DNA of 64,000 bases, taken from Synechococcaceae cyanobacterium. GTDB lineage: Bacteria > Cyanobacteriota > Cyanobacteriia > PCC-6307 > Cyanobiaceae. The notes under the pieces are model-generated. The model worked only from the letters and a program-made list of their open reading frames with translations. It was not told the origin of the DNA and did not search any database. Of this stretch, positions 30,630-58,556 are shown piece by piece (the stretch's first letter is position 1; each line of letters opens with the position of its first letter). The stretch is taken from assembly GCA_947378425.1 (NCBI GenBank), contig CANCJV010000020.1:1-64000 (forward strand). Reading direction: 5' to 3'. Made by a program: the position numbers and the translations under genes.

Positions 30630-31658
30630 GTGGTGGTGGATGAAGCCCCCGAGGCATGGAGACGCACCAGCATCTCGCTGCCTCAACAGACCGTGGACAA
30701 TCTGGAGCGGTTGCGCCGGGAGTGGGGGCTCAGGCACCGTGGGGCCGTGCTTGAGCGCCTGCTGCTCCAGGTTTTTGGCGAGGGCGATGGGGAGGCTGGC
30801 TCCGATGTGCTTCCCGACGACCTGGCGGGGGTGGGTCATCGCCGCGACACCGATGGCGAGCTTGATGAACAGGTCGCCCTGGTTCTGGTGAACCGTGGGG
30901 GCCTGGAGGCGGTTTCGACGGAGAGCGATCCCGACGACAGCCGCAGCGATCGCCTACGCAGCCGAGGAGCTGGCGGTGGCGGCATTGATCTGCCTGGCTT
31001 TGTGCGCAGCCGCACCAGCAAACTCAAGCGTGATCTGGGCTCCGGCAAAACTTCAGCTCCTAAGCTGAATGTGGTGCACCTGCACGTGCCGGCGGAGCAG
31101 ATCCAACAGGCGCTGCTGGAAGCCCGGGCTCACTGGATCACCGTCTATGGCCATGCACCCAATGCCACGGTGCTGGAGAACGCCATGATCTGGTTGGCCC
31201 ACGACATCTGGCCCCAGTGCGATCACAGCGAAGGCAGATTGTTCACCTGGACGGCGGCCTGTGAGGTGATGGCTGACATTGTCAGTGGCTGGAGTGATGA
31301 GGCGCCGAGCTTTGAGCGCGTGATGGTCACCGCCGGGGTGCTGGAGGATCCGTTCAGCCCCGCCACCTTGACCCTGCGATTGCCCACATTGATCCGCCGT
31401 TTTGTACATCGCTTGCGGCGTCGCGGTCGGGGGGGATCGTTCCAGACTCTCGAACACACCATGACACTGCAGGGAGCGCTGAAGTTGCTCAAACTGCCCA
31501 CTGACCCCGGCAATCGCCTGGCCCTGTCCCAGATCCGCGAGTCCTACCGCGAGCTAGCCCTCAGCCACCATCCGGATGCCGGTGGTTCAGTGGAGGCGAT
31601 GCGCCGGATCAACGAGGCCTATCAGTTGCTCAAGGAGCTCTACCGCAACCGTGGCTGA
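30630..31658 (+). CDS. J-domain protein with an N-terminal RHH-like segment
   Basis: A 342-residue protein. The C-terminus is a J-domain: TLQGALKLLKLPTD, RESYRELALSHHPDAGGSVEAMRRINEAYQLL with the diagnostic HPD at about residue 313, which stimulates Hsp70 (DnaK) ATPase. The N-terminus (RRTSISLPQQTVDNLERLRREWGLRHRGAVLERLLLQVF) looks like a ribbon-helix-helix DNA-binding unit. Between them is a disordered acidic/basic stretch and a middle region (VVHLHVPAEQIQQALLEARAHWITVYGHAPNATVLENAMIWLAHD) of unknown type. GTG starts at 30630, 30633 and 30636 are all possible. Together this would be a chaperone co-factor recruited by DNA or by a partner (inference). It borders the gene-poor island. Confidence 0.72.
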   Translation: MVVDEAPEAWRRTSISLPQQTVDNLERLRREWGLRHRGAVLERLLLQVFGEGDGEAGSDVLPDDLAGVGHRRDTDGELDEQVALVLVNRGGLEAVSTESDPDDSRSDRLRSRGAGGGGIDLPGFVRSRTSKLKRDLGSGKTSAPKLNVVHLHVPAEQIQQALLEARAHWITVYGHAPNATVLENAMIWLAHDIWPQCDHSEGRLFTWTAACEVMADIVSGWSDEAPSFERVMVTAGVLEDPFSPATLTLRLPTLIRRFVHRLRRRGRGGSFQTLEHTMTLQGALKLLKLPTDPGNRLALSQIRESYRELALSHHPDAGGSVEAMRRINEAYQLLKELYRNRG

Positions 31659-32050
31659 TCGAAGTGGCTCTCAGTAGTCTCAATCAAGACGAACAGCAAG
31701 TCCCATCTTGGTTTTCATAGGAGACTATCGATTCAAAATGTTTTGAACCCTGAAGCCGCCGGCGCCCATTCGCCACGCTTCCCCGGCTCAGGGCCAAGGC
31801 GCTGCGGCCGCCTTCAAGCAGCCAACCTCGTGCCATGGAGTTTGCGACTGGCGAATCCCGTCCATTGGCAACCCCCATTCGGCCCTATGGGCCTCGACGC
31901 CGCCGACACCAAAAGTTCGACAATGACTTTCAGCCTCCCTCAAGCGACCGTAACCGCTGATTCGGTTACAGATCCGTGAGCCAAGCATGCGTCCCAGAAG
32001 CGTCCCAAGCCGTTTCAGGGTAACAATCGGATTTTGACGTTGCTGCGATG

Positions 32051-32100
32051 ACTCACCTGAGACACAATAGTAGTCCAGACAAGCGTCTCAGGCTGGATAA
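32051..32100. repeat. Imperfect repeat copy A (partner at 34801-34834)
   Basis: This segment and 34801-34834 share, in the same order, ACTCAC, AATAGT, CCAGA, CAAGC, TCAGG and ATAA, with small gaps between the shared blocks. Copy A also contains its own 8-bp inverted repeat (CCTGAGAC at 32056-32063 and GTCTCAGG at 32085-32092). A weaker relative (AGTAGTC...ATCAAGAC) is found at 31668-31690, just after the J-domain gene. The two better copies are about 2.75 kb apart and lie near the edges of the gene-poor island. Confidence 0.4.
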
Positions 32101-32163
32101 AAGATCATGGTTCTCTCGCGTACAGCTTTCCCTTGCGAAGGTGATAGATCGATGAAGAATTGA

Positions 32164-32391
32164 ATCTATCAAAGTGGAGAACTGATTTTCTGGTTTGAAC
32201 TCGCTCATCACGTGACTGCCGGCTATGTCGGTGCGCAGATTAACTTTCCGCTCGCCATAGGAGCAAGAATAGGAACTGTTTGGCACAGTATTGCTGGAGG
32301 AATATTTGTGGGCGCATTCGCTGTGATATGCCTTACGGGCTATATCCTTGATTGGGATGAGATATTGAACCTGAATCTTATTCGCTCATGA
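32164..32391 (+). pseudogene. Open frame for a hydrophobic peptide, no good start
   Basis: The frame is open for 75 codons to TGA 32389-32391 and reads like a membrane protein: GYVGAQINFPLAIGARIGTV followed by HSIAGGIFVGAFAVICLTGY as a probable transmembrane helix. No ATG is present; the only plausible start is the GTG in the sequence HHVTAGY. It may be the end of a lost membrane protein gene, cut off upstream by a stop at 32161. Family not recognised. Real coding is doubtful. Confidence 0.25.
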
Positions 32392-32421
32392 GCAGTGCCC
32401 AATCTTGTGAACTCCGAGTCT

Positions 32422-32625
32422 ATGAATGATGATACTTTGCAGATGAGGGAGCTCATCGTTTTGGGAACAGCGGCTATTACTACTTCGCGCGTTATCTTGC
32501 AATTTCGGGATGGAGGGCGTGGGCGCGATGCCACTGCCAGCAAGAAAAGCCAACGGCTAGACCAGTTTTTAGCCGTCAGCGAGCTCGTTGCCTGCTTAAT
32601 TTTCGTAGTCGCTTTTAGCATCTGA
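32422..32625 (+). CDS. Possible small membrane protein in the AT-rich island
   Basis: A 67-residue open frame from ATG 32422 (MNDDTLQMRELIVLG) ending in a hydrophobic helix (QFLAVSELVACLIFVVAFSI); a second, shorter hydrophobic stretch precedes a basic segment (FRDGGRGRDATASKKSQR). No family is recognised, and there is no clear ribosome-binding site ahead of the ATG. The composition differs from the flanking genes. It directly follows the hydrophobic frame ending at 32391, so both may derive from one acquired membrane-protein locus. Treated as uncertain. Confidence 0.22.
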   Translation: MNDDTLQMRELIVLGTAAITTSRVILQFRDGGRGRDATASKKSQRLDQFLAVSELVACLIFVVAFSI

Positions 32626-33639
32626 TACCCGACATGGGAAAGAGCAAATTTTTTGGTTTCAATCCCCTTCATTGCGTCAGTACCTACCTTGGACGCTGCG
32701 AACGACTTGTTGCAATCATCGTGTGGCCTGGCTCTAAAGCATTGGTGGGCTCAACATATCGGAAGCTAGCCATGGCAGAGGCGGGCTTGATTGCGGCGAT
32801 AGCCCCGCGTTGCACTCCTGAACCGTATATCATGATAACCATGGTAGCCTCTATGTTGCTGATCGCAATTCCCACAATCCCAATCGTAAGATAGCAGCTC
32901 AAATTATAACGAGCCCAAGCCTGTCAGCGGAGCCAAAAAGCAACTTGGCCCCCATCGGAAATAATTAGCAACGAATTTACGCAAATAATTCTCGAGACCT
33001 GCACTATTTTTCAGCAAGTCTTGATCCTGAATTCAACTTTAGATTGCTGTCATGATGCTGCACTAATTGCTTAATGAACAAAAAGTACGCAGCTCAAAGG
33101 AGCTGCAACCTATTGGATCACAAATTTGAATTTGGTGGCTGCTGAAAGCTCACGACAGAAATGCTGATCAAGGACCTTTGGACCTCACGACCAGGGGAGC
33201 GGCCAGCACGCCAAGAATCGCCGACAGATCTGGCGATGACTGCCGACCTTCGTCGCTTGAAGGCTTCTGGAGGCTTCTTCATCTCCTGAGCAACACACCG
33301 TTCCAAACAGGTCGGCTCGTCCAGCGCTCTGCGCGGTTGTCTTGATCAGGACACTTTTCAAGACCAGTTCTGGTACCCATCTACGACAAGCGAGAACTTA
33401 AAAAACAGACGATTCTGCGTGCGTGGAGGAGGAACCACACAGCCAGTGTTCAAGTTCCATGCGCCAGCATCCGCCTTCGGCGCTGGGGCGGCTCAGGCTG
33501 GAATCCTGCCCCATCTCCTCCTGGCCCTGACCTCCTGATGCCAGGAGCGGGCCAAGTCATGTCCAGTTCCGTGTCCAAAAACCTAAAACCCTGTCCATGG
33601 CTTCTCAAAGACGTTGCAGCAACTGATCTGAAGTGAGTT

Positions 33640-33666
33640 GCGTATCTGCTTTTAAGGCAGATACGC
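33640..33666. repeat. Perfect 10-bp hairpin in the gene-poor island
   Basis: GCGTATCTGC at 33640-33649 and its exact complement at 33657-33666 enclose a 7-nt TTTTAAG loop. It has no downstream T-run on the plus strand, and no gene ends next to it. It could be an element terminus, an old terminator or chance. Confidence 0.35.
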
Positions 33667-34800
33667 ACGGCGTTGGTGCCGCCGCAACGGTTGCCTCTAT
33701 GGGGCGTGGACACAGCTGGGCTCGGTGGGTTTGCCAGGTTGGTTCCCTCGGGCCAGGTGTGGCCTTGGGCTGCGACCGGGAGGCATCGATGGTGGATGAC
33801 TACATGTCCGCCGGCGAGACGCACGCCCCCAGGGCGAATAGCCATTGCCAGTCGATGTATTCCAAAAGTGGTCTTGAGCTTGGACTCTTGATGTGTCTTG
33901 GCTGAACCCGTTGAGCCTGTTTAAGGCATGGAAATTCCCTTGCGGCCTGGGGCAGTTGCGCCAGGATCATCGCTGTTCATCTGGCCGGTGACAGGCCGGT
34001 TGGAGCCAGCAGGCCTTGCATTTGTCTCTGGACGATCTCCCAGCCAGGGAAGTTCGGGTCTCAGTGTCATTCCCAGGACCACTGAGCTGCACTCTGCTGG
34101 ATCGGGCGCCACTGGCTGTCCTTTTCAAGGCGCAGGGTCTCATCCAACACCGGGAACCCCAGGCCACCCCGGACCCTGATCTTGTAATCTCACAAGTTCA
34201 GCAAGAGAACCTATCTTGGTCCGATAATGGGTCTCATCTGCAACTCGTAGATCACCGGCCGATTGAGGCGGGCGAAGTCGCCATCGTGCAGTTGAGGCCA
34301 TTCTGGTGACCGGCATTGGTCTGAACTGTCCAACTGATCAGTACCTTTGTTGGCGCGGCCTGGGGAGCCGCTTGTCTGGCATCGGGCTAATCAGGAATTG
34401 GTGCATTGCTGGCCGGAGGAGAAAGCCGCCGCCCCAGGGAACCTTTCGTCCTTGACAGTGCCGTGAGCAAGGCCAGAAGCGTGTTGTGCATCACCCGCTC
34501 GGAACGCAAAGTCCAGACTCGACCCAAGCCAACGTCCAAAGCGTCTCATGCTGATCTCGCCTGGGCCACCCTTCGGGTACGTCAAGCATTCGAGATCGCA
34601 GTGCCATGGATCTGGGCAAGACGCCATCTCGGGATCCGCCCACCGCTATCTCAGTTCGATTCCGGATTGAATCTCGTCTGCGGCGGCAATGTCCCCAGGA
34701 TCTGTTCGGGGATCCAGGTACAACACGCTCCTGGTGCTATTCCCACGAAGGGCTGGCAGCCATGGTGGGCCGAACTGGCATCTACCACATCTCTCTCGAG

Positions 34801-34834
34801 ACTCACTAATAGTCCAGAATCAAGCTCAGGATAA
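34801..34834. repeat. Imperfect repeat copy B (partner at 32051-32100)
   Basis: This shorter copy contains the ordered blocks ACTCAC, AATAGT, CCAGA, CAAGC, TCAGG and ATAA shared with copy A, but lacks the internal inverted repeat. It lies about 200 nt before the end of apcD, close to the right edge of the gene-poor stretch. Confidence 0.4.
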
Positions 34835-35041
34835 GACGGCTGATCCTGGGGAGGAGGTTCTCTGAAGGGCTACTCCTTCTCGCCGATGCTCAGCGCTGCG
34901 CACGTGCCCATCAGTTCCTCGAACCGTTCAAAAAACAAGCCAGGTGTCGCTTCAGGACTCCTGGCTCACCGTTTCAAGGGCCTCAACAAGCCGAACGAAT
35001 TTGCGAAATCTCGGGCTGATGGGGCAGGGGAGCGTTGCCGA

Positions 35042-35536
35042 TCAGGTGGTGGTCTGCATGCCCTGGATCAGGAAGTCGAAATAGGGGCCTGCCAATGCCG
35101 CATCATCGCCATTCAGCAGCGCCAGGGCCGCCTCCTTGAGGGTGCGCATCGCCTCCACCATGCCGGGCAAGGGCACCCCCAGGCTGTTGTACATCTCGCG
35201 GGCACCCACCAGGCCGATCTCCTGGATCATCTCGGTGCTGCCGGCCAGCACCCCATAGGTGACCAACCGCAGATACCAGCTGTAGTCCCTCAGGCACTGG
35301 GTCCGTTGTTTCTGGCCGAAGGCATTGCCACCCGGTGCCACGTACTCGGGCTTGCGGCTGAACAATTGGCGGGCGGCCTCATCAACGATTTTTTTCTCGT
35401 TATCGGTCAGAACCCGGACAACCCCCAGGCGCCTGGATCCTCCCGAGAGGAAATCCACCATCGAGCGCAACTCGCCGCCGGTGGGATACCGCAGCTGATC
35501 ATCGGCCTGGAGGATCAGATCGCGAACGACGCTCAT
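35042..35536 (-). CDS. apcD: Allophycocyanin-B alpha chain (phycobilisome terminal emitter)
   Basis: A 164-residue phycobiliprotein of the phycobilisome core; ApcD carries phycocyanobilin and passes energy to the photosystems, particularly photosystem I. The start is ATG 35536 (MSVVRDLILQADDQLRYP), the conserved ApcD N-terminus. The chromophore cysteine is at residue 81 in QKQRTQCLRDYSWYLRL, preceded by APGGNAFGQ, and the family end VPLPGMVEAMRTLKEAAL is present. The length is normal. It stands alone, away from the apcAB operon, as is usual for apcD. It is divergent from rlmD; an inverted repeat lies between the two starts. Confidence 0.95.
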   Translation of the reverse strand: MSVVRDLILQADDQLRYPTGGELRSMVDFLSGGSRRLGVVRVLTDNEKKIVDEAARQLFSRKPEYVAPGGNAFGQKQRTQCLRDYSWYLRLVTYGVLAGSTEMIQEIGLVGAREMYNSLGVPLPGMVEAMRTLKEAALALLNGDDAALAGPYFDFLIQGMQTTT

Positions 35537-35592
35537 TGCAGCGACCACAGACTGGGCCATCGTATCGACTCGTTCCGGCGGATCGGCCATCT

Positions 35593-35622
35593 CCGTGCAA
35601 GGTGTAACGCCCCTTTGCACGG
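35593..35622. promoter_or_regulatory. Inverted repeat in the apcD-rlmD divergent promoter region
   Basis: CCGTGCAA at 35593-35600 and its exact complement TTGCACGG at 35615-35622 are separated by 14 nt, so the half-sites are centred about two helical turns apart, as for a dimeric repressor. The position, 57 nt upstream of the apcD start and 34 nt upstream of rlmD, would suit an operator. It could also be a leader hairpin. No regulator is assigned. Confidence 0.4.
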
Positions 35623-52554: not shown

Positions 52555-52628
52555 GGCTCGGTAGCTCAGCTGGTTAGAGCGTGGGATTCATAACCCCAAG
52601 GTCGGGAGTTCAAGTCTCCCCCGAGCCA
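52555..52628 (+). tRNA. tRNA-Met (anticodon CAU), elongator type
   Basis: A 74-nt cloverleaf: acceptor stem GGCTCGG (52555-52561) pairs with CCGAGCC (52621-52627), followed by the discriminator A; D arm contains TAGCTCAGCTGGTTAGAGC; anticodon loop TTCATAA with CAU; T arm GGGAGTTCAAGTCTCCC. CCA is not encoded. The acceptor begins with G-C paired to C, so it is not an initiator. CAU also occurs in the isoleucine tRNA modified to lysidine; I prefer elongator Met. A terminator follows. Confidence 0.93.
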
Positions 52629-58120: not shown

Positions 58121-58170
58121 GCCGGGTTGGTTGGATGCAGACATCGCCGGGTTGGTTGGATGCAGACATC
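58121..58170. repeat. Perfect tandem duplication of 25 nt in the hupE leader
   Basis: Two identical 25-nt units lie directly next to each other (58121-58145 and 58146-58170). They sit between the B12 box of the cobalamin riboswitch and the hupE start. The unit begins GCCGGGTTGGTTGGATGCAG on the plus strand. Confidence 0.95.
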
Positions 58171-58312
58171 GGCGGGCGTTCTGACTCGGTCACCGGCGGT
58201 GACCATCACAGCTGCGGGACAGTGCCGGACTGGTCATCCCGAAGGACAACGCACCGAACTTTCCCCGTTACCTCCGTGGGCTGATCCCCCACGGAACCGA
58301 CTGGATGCAACG
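58168..58312 (-). ncRNA. Cobalamin riboswitch ahead of hupE-cobW
   Basis: On the minus strand the segment contains the aptamer landmarks in the right order: a GGTTCC element and its hairpin (CCGTGGG...CCCACGG), AACGGGGAAAGTTCGGTG, CCGGCACTGTCCCGCAGCTGTGATGG, and the B12 box AGTCAGAACGCCCGCC (58171-58186). Adenosylcobalamin binding should turn off hupE-cobW. The expression platform is not obvious, because no clear terminator follows; translational control by hiding the ribosome-binding site is more likely. The exact 5' limit is approximate. Confidence 0.88.
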
Positions 58313-58556
58313 TAATCGGACCTGAAGCCTCCGGCCGGGATTGCAACACCCAACAGCACACCTTCGGACAGGCGCGAGGGTGTGTTGCTGACGGGTCGGG
58401 CCGTTCTGCCCAGGTCGGATCTCAGCCGTGGGTCGTTGAACGATCGCCGCCAGGGGCGCTCATCCCTGCCGATCCGGATGATGTCTGTGCAACGGTTTCA
58501 AGGCCAGTGGACGCCAGGCCATCGTGTCGATGCCAACTTCACTGCGCTTGCTGTCT

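Follow-up and report, generated by a model that had tools for sequence, protein, structure and literature searches.

What does a genome that is otherwise dense in genes keep in a spacer of 3.4 kb? The question is raised by a 64,000-nucleotide stretch of DNA from a Synechococcaceae cyanobacterium (this whole stretch is called the window here), in which positions 31659 to 35041 had been described by a first-pass annotation as a gene-poor island that might be a decayed mobile element or genomic island, or might hold unrecognised RNA genes. In our analysis this spacer, which separates two convergent genes, is syntenic within the genus and contains a unique and deeply conserved dyad of 29 bp that the annotation had overlooked. 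Because of its position, its uniqueness and its form we regard the dyad as dif-like. We put the probability that the spacer holds a dif-like site for the resolution of chromosome dimers, with accessory arm boxes and copied by phages, at about 0.8.

The core dyad and its position

The spacer lies between a gene for a protein with a ribbon-helix-helix (RHH) and a J domain (the J gene) and an apcD-like phycobilisome gene. A comparison of this locus in related strains, which had been recommended along with the first description, was informative: gene order is maintained in all 32 genus relatives that have both genes on one contig, and one conserved element emerges. In blastn searches (E ≤ 0.01) of the spacer against 36 stretches fetched from relatives, alignment is limited to the ends of both genes and a short stretch, which covers 33634-33675 at its widest, save for one 57-column match that starts at 33612. 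Within it lies the core dyad, TGCGTATCTG-CTTTTAAGG-CAGATACGCA (33639-33667, + strand), our candidate dif-like recombination core. The dyad is present in 35 of the 36 stretches, every one of the 32 complete spacers among them; the 36th, from G028, lacks the spacer. Conserved sequence in sister strains was what the first-pass annotation had expected to count against decay, and it is found for one element, this dyad, in 32 of 32 genus relatives. Since the dyad is conserved in the genus and in the family, the locus is more than a decayed island: other DNA has also entered the spacer, but the site within it is conserved.

The 42 genomes of the genus were searched with the pattern GCGYAYCTG-N6-9-CAGRTRCGC and, as a control, with the reversed pattern. 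The pattern occurs exactly once in 37 genomes, always with 9 nt between the arms, and more than once in none of the 42; the control gave no match. Five genomes lack the pattern. In G015 a one-base variant takes its place; in G028, G030 and G033 the two flanking genes lie on separate contigs; and for G036 only paralogues of both flanking genes turned up. Among 388 members of the class, with at most one mismatch allowed, the core was found in 27 of the 64 genomes of the family versus 1 of the 324 others. Of the 37 family genomes that gave no match, 29 were followed up together with G281, and the J gene was located in all 30. At the 20 loci outside genus g25 (G281 included) there is invariably a dyad downstream of the J gene, with 15-19 of the 20 consensus letters and a centre of exactly 9 nt. 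The ten loci of g25, the genomes of which are AT-rich, 1.6-1.7 Mb in size and, by inference, Prochlorococcus-like, all carry GTACTG-N9-CAGTAC.

Among the genome contigs listed, the named matches include Synechococcus, Cyanobium and Vulcanococcus, with one Prochlorococcus record. All 25 loci with a J or apcD neighbour, among the 80 genome-contig loci measured, have the 27-nt form. Of the 55 non-cyanobacterial loci among the matches listed, 47 have another spacing and eight have the 27-nt form, and none adjoins a J or apcD gene. Contigs of Clostridia/Oscillospiraceae metagenome-assembled genomes (L129, L135, L136, L140, L146, L149, L154 and others) carry hairpins of the form GCGTAYCTG-N8-CAGRTACGC, with an 8-nt centre, and one genome, JAFTNI, has such a hairpin on at least two contigs; these are perhaps a separate repeat family.

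The dyad consists of two inverted half-sites around a short centre, as does a chromosomal dif. In several lineages the halves differ, one being GCGTCACTG and the other GCGTACCTG. In an ungapped comparison of 73 distinct cores, from related genomes that are not independent, the variable pair 6/22 is still matched in 62, with paired changes CG, TA and AT, while 14 cores break at least one stem pair and six of these break two.

The position of the site was measured in the 15 one-contig chromosomes that carry it, with dnaN as the marker of the origin. We preferred dnaN over dnaA because oriC adjoins dnaN in most cyanobacteria studied, namely in 55 of 68 (PMC4674748) and in S. elongatus (PMC3480399; these and the other articles cited by number are represented by excerpts). 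The dnaA gene itself lies at 31.4% (G019) and 30.8% (G022) of the circle from dnaN. In 14 of the 15 chromosomes the site lies at 45.5-52.4% of the circle from dnaN (G419 50.1, G234 50.2, G353 46.9, G365 51.7, G301 48.9, G288 51.0, G186 50.1, G261 47.9, G398 52.4, G401 50.6, G166 48.8, G369 48.4, G022 52.3 and G019 45.5%). A second match at one mismatch in G369 is taken as chance. In G288 (2.11 Mb), 40 samples divided at the site give the two arms GC skews of opposite sign, +0.024 and -0.027 (Mann-Whitney p 7e-7). The cumulative skews of this genome peak close to the site, at +32 kb for GC, -18 kb for TA, +17 kb for both combined and -32 kb for octamers; these peaks are maxima within 400 kb around the site, the octamers having been chosen from samples outside that stretch.

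The box array and the viral copies

To the left of the core the window has three copies of an accessory box, TGTCCA, all on the + strand, at 33560-33565, 33572-33577 and 33592-33597, which start 79, 67 and 47 nt from the core, respectively; the last of these is at a position that is rare in hosts and is also seen in some viral copies. Nearer the core, the left flank (33606-33638, + strand) is weakly conserved in the family, with an A-run at about -30, a T-tract at about -9 and an A at -5. For the flanks, information content was computed over 96 distinct sites out of 104, all turned so that the J gene is on the left. Conserved positions in the left flank are at about -55 to -51, -31 to -26, -17/-16 and -10 to -5, and the outer signal is due to the TGTCCA boxes; the right flank has almost no conservation past its first base. 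TGTCCA or TGGACA occurs 161 times within 150 nt to the left of the 96 sites, versus eight times within 150 nt to the right of 95 and twice in a far-left stretch of 92, and 81 of the 96 sites have at least one left box. The direct form (GTCCA) begins at about -77, -66 and -55 and the inverted form (TGGAC) at about -45, a phasing of about 11 bp. In g25, nine of ten loci have TGTCC starting at both -70 and -59 from GTACTG, and the tenth has it at -59 only; allowing for the shorter arm, this register is that of the other lineages. Among the genome-contig loci listed, from a total of at least 118, boxes accompany 27 of 30 cyanobacterial loci and 4 of 88 others; the 30 were chosen manually on the basis of record titles, except L183, chosen by its J gene, and L212, which is titled as a cyanobacterium, was counted among the 88. 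L183 (CALPNT020000153.1) is titled Bifidobacterium breve and carries a picocyanobacterial J gene (75% identity) together with the site, and is a mislabelled or contaminated metagenome-assembled genome.

The site is not confined to chromosomes. At least 120 stretches in IMG/VR contain the core, and 114 of those listed could be tested for boxes. Among these, 71 have two or more boxes and 91 have at least one, versus 1 and 33, respectively, of 120 control stretches, with the better of two orientations counted for sites and control alike. The viral search pattern was looser, with N at the variable base, so that some of the 23 testable contigs without boxes may be chance matches, and some of the contigs may be near-duplicates of each other. 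In the box scan that also covered the genome contigs, a few rows near contig ends are slicing artefacts, and the viral counts above come from a separate scan. Among ten proteins scanned from eight viral contigs, those of five contigs are a terminase large subunit or ThyX, those of one include a tail fibre, and those of two are unknowns; L491, in the terminase/ThyX group, had no boxes in the scan and the other seven contigs had them. Parts of L477, L453 and L450 match T7-like podoviruses of Synechococcus, and no named phage matched L491 or L462.

One complete annotated phage of the Autographiviridae, AP013539, carries the core about 550 nt from its terminase gene, with boxes at the GTCCA/TGGAC level, and none of its 49 annotated features, many of which are hypothetical, is named as an integrase. 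The partial records of S-SBP1, S-RIP2, S-CBP1, S-CBP3, Syn5 and S-SRP01 are without the site. Three sites, used as short queries against named phages, returned the source phage only, a chance Gordonia match (E 5) and nothing, respectively. Among the 120 viral loci listed, which are partial records, there was no homologue of the J protein, of apcD or of the candidate recombinase described below (4 of its 11 sequences were used), other integrases not having been searched for. T7-like cyanophages that possess an integrase integrate at tRNA-Leu, according to the excerpt of PMC8776855, and a dif-like site would therefore be a second route.

Candidate proteins and the rest of the spacer

A Phage_integrase scan of 11 genomes found one divergent tyrosine recombinase in all 11 (67% mean column identity); in G427 it is the sole match. 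In the genome of the window the gene is on another contig, G000:C16. It is followed in 10 of the 11 stretches by a gene whose translation resembles cob(I)alamin adenosyltransferase, and which we take to be cobO; in G427 a different gene follows. Pfam assigns Phage_integrase to all 11 proteins and Arm-DNA-bind_2 to seven at E ≤ 0.1 (best E 9.8e-4). Residues R279, K306, Y368, R371, H394 and Y403 are invariant in the 11, presumably as the catalytic set with Y replacing H. The only PDB profile match is to archaeal XerA (4a8e, E 0.0028). From its ubiquity and its domain content we infer that this recombinase may act at the dyad.

The J gene (30630-31658, + strand) and the apcD-like gene (35042-35608, - strand; Pfam Phycobilisome, 1.1e-56) converge on the spacer. 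An orthologue of the J gene is present in 41 of the 42 genus genomes (G036 has J-domain paralogues only, and the copy in G028 is cut by a contig end) and in all 30 further family genomes, and an apcD-like orthologue in 39 of the 42, with paralogues only in G016, G036 and G064. The J protein has its J domain in the C-terminal part and the RHH motif at the N-terminal start. Among 28 orthologues at Pfam E ≤ 0.01, 27 match DnaJ and 10 match RHH_1 (best 1.3e-5); the protein of the window scores 17.2 bits for RHH_1 versus a cut-off of 20.5. Residues 10-58 have a weak profile match to the RHH regulator NikR (E 0.099), and a structure model gave mainly J-domain matches, none under E 0.1. The RHH/J-domain protein, encoded beside the site, is a second candidate for reading the boxes, with a possible accessory DNA-binding role.

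As for the spacer itself, a codon-usage script of our own, trained on the window, left exactly 31659-35041 (3383 nt) empty, and this is the largest gap of the window; the script is crude and may miss real genes. The gap is real. In the 32 relatives with the complete locus, 907-2134 nt separate the two protein matches. The statement that all other gaps are below about 700 nt did not hold, in that the same crude finder leaves seven further gaps of 703-1467 nt. That the spacer has no recognisable gene was borne out: of 29 internal open reading frames (ORFs) of at least 50 amino acids, 28 score negative against the genes of the window and one about zero, the accepted genes having a median codon-usage score of +0.39 per codon. 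Pfam and PHROGs searches with ten ORFs of the spacer gave nothing convincing, the best being a 14-residue PHROG match (E 0.0057). The suggestion of unrecognised RNA genes found no support in the scans made: Rfam has no match at the gathering score and one chance match in permissive mode (11.9 bits versus a cut-off of 70), a tRNA scan found no RNA gene, a promoter scan found no promoter, and a terminator scan gave one terminator-like match (33088-33107), below the mean of 3.3 in shuffled sequence.

The mobile-element suggestion was correct in part, missing the dyad while pointing to debris that is indeed there. An old, decayed copy of an element that resembles a miniature inverted-repeat transposable element (MITE) lies at 34471-34738 (no strand) and retains its inverted arms (34473-34487 and 34720-34734). 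A second MITE-like copy occurs in the same genome (G000:C40:9-236), and relatives of about 220-275 bp, which in G020 carry terminal inverted repeats of about 40 bp, are multi-copy in G020, G007 and G028 (loci L003-L020). The AT-richer part was also correctly observed: the 1-kb stretch of lowest GC in the window begins at 32101 (32101-33100, no strand; GC 0.471 versus 0.654 for the window). The origin of this kilobase is unexplained. No relative of it was found in 60 genomes, its own included (the first five candidates in each were scored), the DNA of the spacer has no similarity to phages or plasmids, and a kilobase without relatives would fit foreign or decaying DNA. On its + strand, three short ORFs (32212-32391, 32395-32625 and 32634-32894) follow one another back to back, and no relatives or coding signal were found for them. 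The MITE remnant and the AT-rich kilobase lengthen the spacer. Elsewhere in the window there are a cobalamin riboswitch (58154-58317; Rfam RF00174, 49.3 bits) and a tRNA-Met gene (52555-52628).

Proposed mechanism, alternatives and known systems

In the dif-like site that we propose, a tyrosine recombinase would bind pairwise to the two inverted half-sites of the 29-bp core. Joining and exchange between two sister sites at the replication terminus would return a chromosome dimer to monomers. Recombination at the dyad is itself part of the proposal. The boxes may be bound by the arm domain of the recombinase or by the RHH domain of the neighbouring J-domain protein, and the one-sided arm may set the direction of the reaction. 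The host enzyme may serve phages that carry the site, either for integration at dif or for resolving concatemers of the phage genome. A fuller version of this proposal, which we offer tentatively and at somewhat less than even odds, is a compound dif: a core with a helically phased, one-sided arm array, a host recombinase with a phage-type arm domain and possibly an RHH/J helper. The array would set direction as in the resolution sites of plasmids and transposons, and T7-like cyanophages without an integrase would carry the whole site for the host enzyme.

Several observations speak against a dif-like site. In G281 (L263, L351) the site is an outlier at 33.3% of the circle from dnaN, by rearrangement, assembly error or unequal arms, and in G022 there was no usable skew switch with 40 samples. 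In g25 the dyad has lost its outer part and, as we read the alignment, the palindrome touches the stop codon of the neighbouring gene. E. coli dif has the layout 11-6-11, the present core 11-7-11 or 10-9-10, with letters that resemble dif only loosely and without arms that agree with the XerC/XerD consensus. The centre of 7-9 nt and the different arms mean that it is therefore not a dif of the XerCD type. Fifteen of the 96 sites have no TGTCCA in the left 150 nt. The recombinase gene is not beside the site, unlike those of XerS and XerH. The arm-domain match is weak (14.9 bits versus a cut-off of 22 in the genome of the window), and such a domain usually marks the integrases of mobile elements, either phages or integrative and conjugative elements (PMC8138268). 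For two of the 11 recombinase sequences the best NCBIfam matches, to XerS and XerA, are weak at 18-21 bits versus cut-offs of 267 and 220. The AlphaFold model of the recombinase is poor (pLDDT 69), with 4a8e as the first Foldseek match (E 1.2e-3, low TM score); the structure models are too poor to bear weight. Finally, symmetry alone cannot decide between an RNA hairpin and a DNA site.

The dyad might indeed be a bidirectional transcription terminator or an RNA hairpin between convergent genes, as the orientation of the genes, the strength of the dyad and the paired changes at pair 6/22 suggest. Against this, there is no T-tract (the 8 nt that follow the stem contain 2.3 T on average, and five or more in 6 of 96), stem pairs are broken in the 14 cores mentioned above, and pairing of the flanks outside the core is near expectation (58 observed versus 48 expected at the first position). 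The core is also at least 325 nt from either flanking protein match in all 32 relatives, it is single in each genome and at the terminus, and viral contigs carry dyad and boxes together. The broken pairs, the differing halves and the missing T-tract favour two protein half-sites over an RNA hairpin, and we find a terminator hard to credit. Marginally easier to credit, although still improbable, is an ordinary phage attachment site (attB) that is used with the phage's own integrase and has no host role. Core and boxes are present on viral contigs, the arm-domain match of the candidate recombinase resembles phage integrases, and the 120 viral loci listed are partial records and were not searched for other kinds of integrase. 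On the other side stand the missing homologue of the candidate recombinase (4 of its 11 sequences used) among those loci, the annotation of AP013539, with no named integrase among features that are often hypothetical, and the att sites in tRNA-Leu known for T7-like cyanophages (excerpt of PMC8776855), and the conservation throughout the family of core, boxes and terminus position points to selection in the host.

The alternative that we take most seriously, while still considering it unlikely, is an organiser of the terminus or a fork-arrest site, similar to MatP/matS or Ter, that is bound by the RHH/J protein and is not a recombination site. The RHH/J gene adjoins the site wherever both are visible, and the terminus position would fit. 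The matS and Ter sites are multiple, unlike the single picocyanobacterial site, and the viral copies and the two half-sites of the core fit recombination better. We give practically no credence to the proposition that the spacer is only a decayed genomic island and the dyad a chance palindrome. The MITE remnant and the AT-rich kilobase are what such an island would contain, and yet a dyad that is found in all 32 relatives with a whole spacer, once per genome, refutes this for the dyad.

A dif-like site would be of interest in this group. The excerpts of two articles report that dif was predicted in none of five cyanobacteria (PMC3025954) and that none was predicted in the species studied or in other cyanobacteria (PMC6416890). 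In the titles and abstract openings that we found in the open literature no cyanobacterial dif site is described; subscription papers were mostly outside this scope. With a terminus site in relatives of Synechococcus, Cyanobium and Prochlorococcus, which are small and abundant phototrophs of marine and fresh waters, dimer resolution, terminus mapping and segregation become directly testable. The site also hints that cyanophages lacking an integrase could rely on the host enzyme to integrate or to resolve concatemers. A group of recombinases, the Cyan subgroup, has been proposed to substitute for Xer in cyanobacteria (PMC8138268). Our candidate is similarly a cyanobacterial tyrosine recombinase, whereas the excerpt describes the subgroup as simple, that is, without an arm domain, and as coming from Oscillatoriophycideae; this comparison is by description only.

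The proposed site resembles several known systems, each in part. Like the XerCD/dif of E. coli it is one short dyad of two half-sites per chromosome, located at the terminus, near the strand-skew switch in the one finely mapped genome (G288), and copied by mobile elements. It differs in its 29-bp core with a 7- or 9-nt centre and in its one-sided TGTCCA array, and no XerC/XerD pair was identified. The nearly symmetric core and the single recombinase in every genome scanned resemble XerS/difSL, XerH/difH and XerA/dif, from which it is set apart by a candidate that scores below the cut-offs, a gene away from the site, the arm-domain signal and the accessory boxes. Integrative mobile elements exploiting Xer (IMEX), such as CTXphi and others that use Xer/dif, offer a parallel for phage genomes with a site like that of the host and, in AP013539, no annotated integrase, although here the carriers are T7-like (Autographiviridae) cyanophages, which have boxes as well as the core and for which integration is a proposed step. 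The cer and psi sites of Xer and the TnpI internal recombination site (IRS) of Tn4430 similarly combine a core with a one-sided accessory array, which could impose selectivity on resolution. Those are sites of plasmids or a transposon, whereas the picocyanobacterial site is chromosomal, unique and family-wide.

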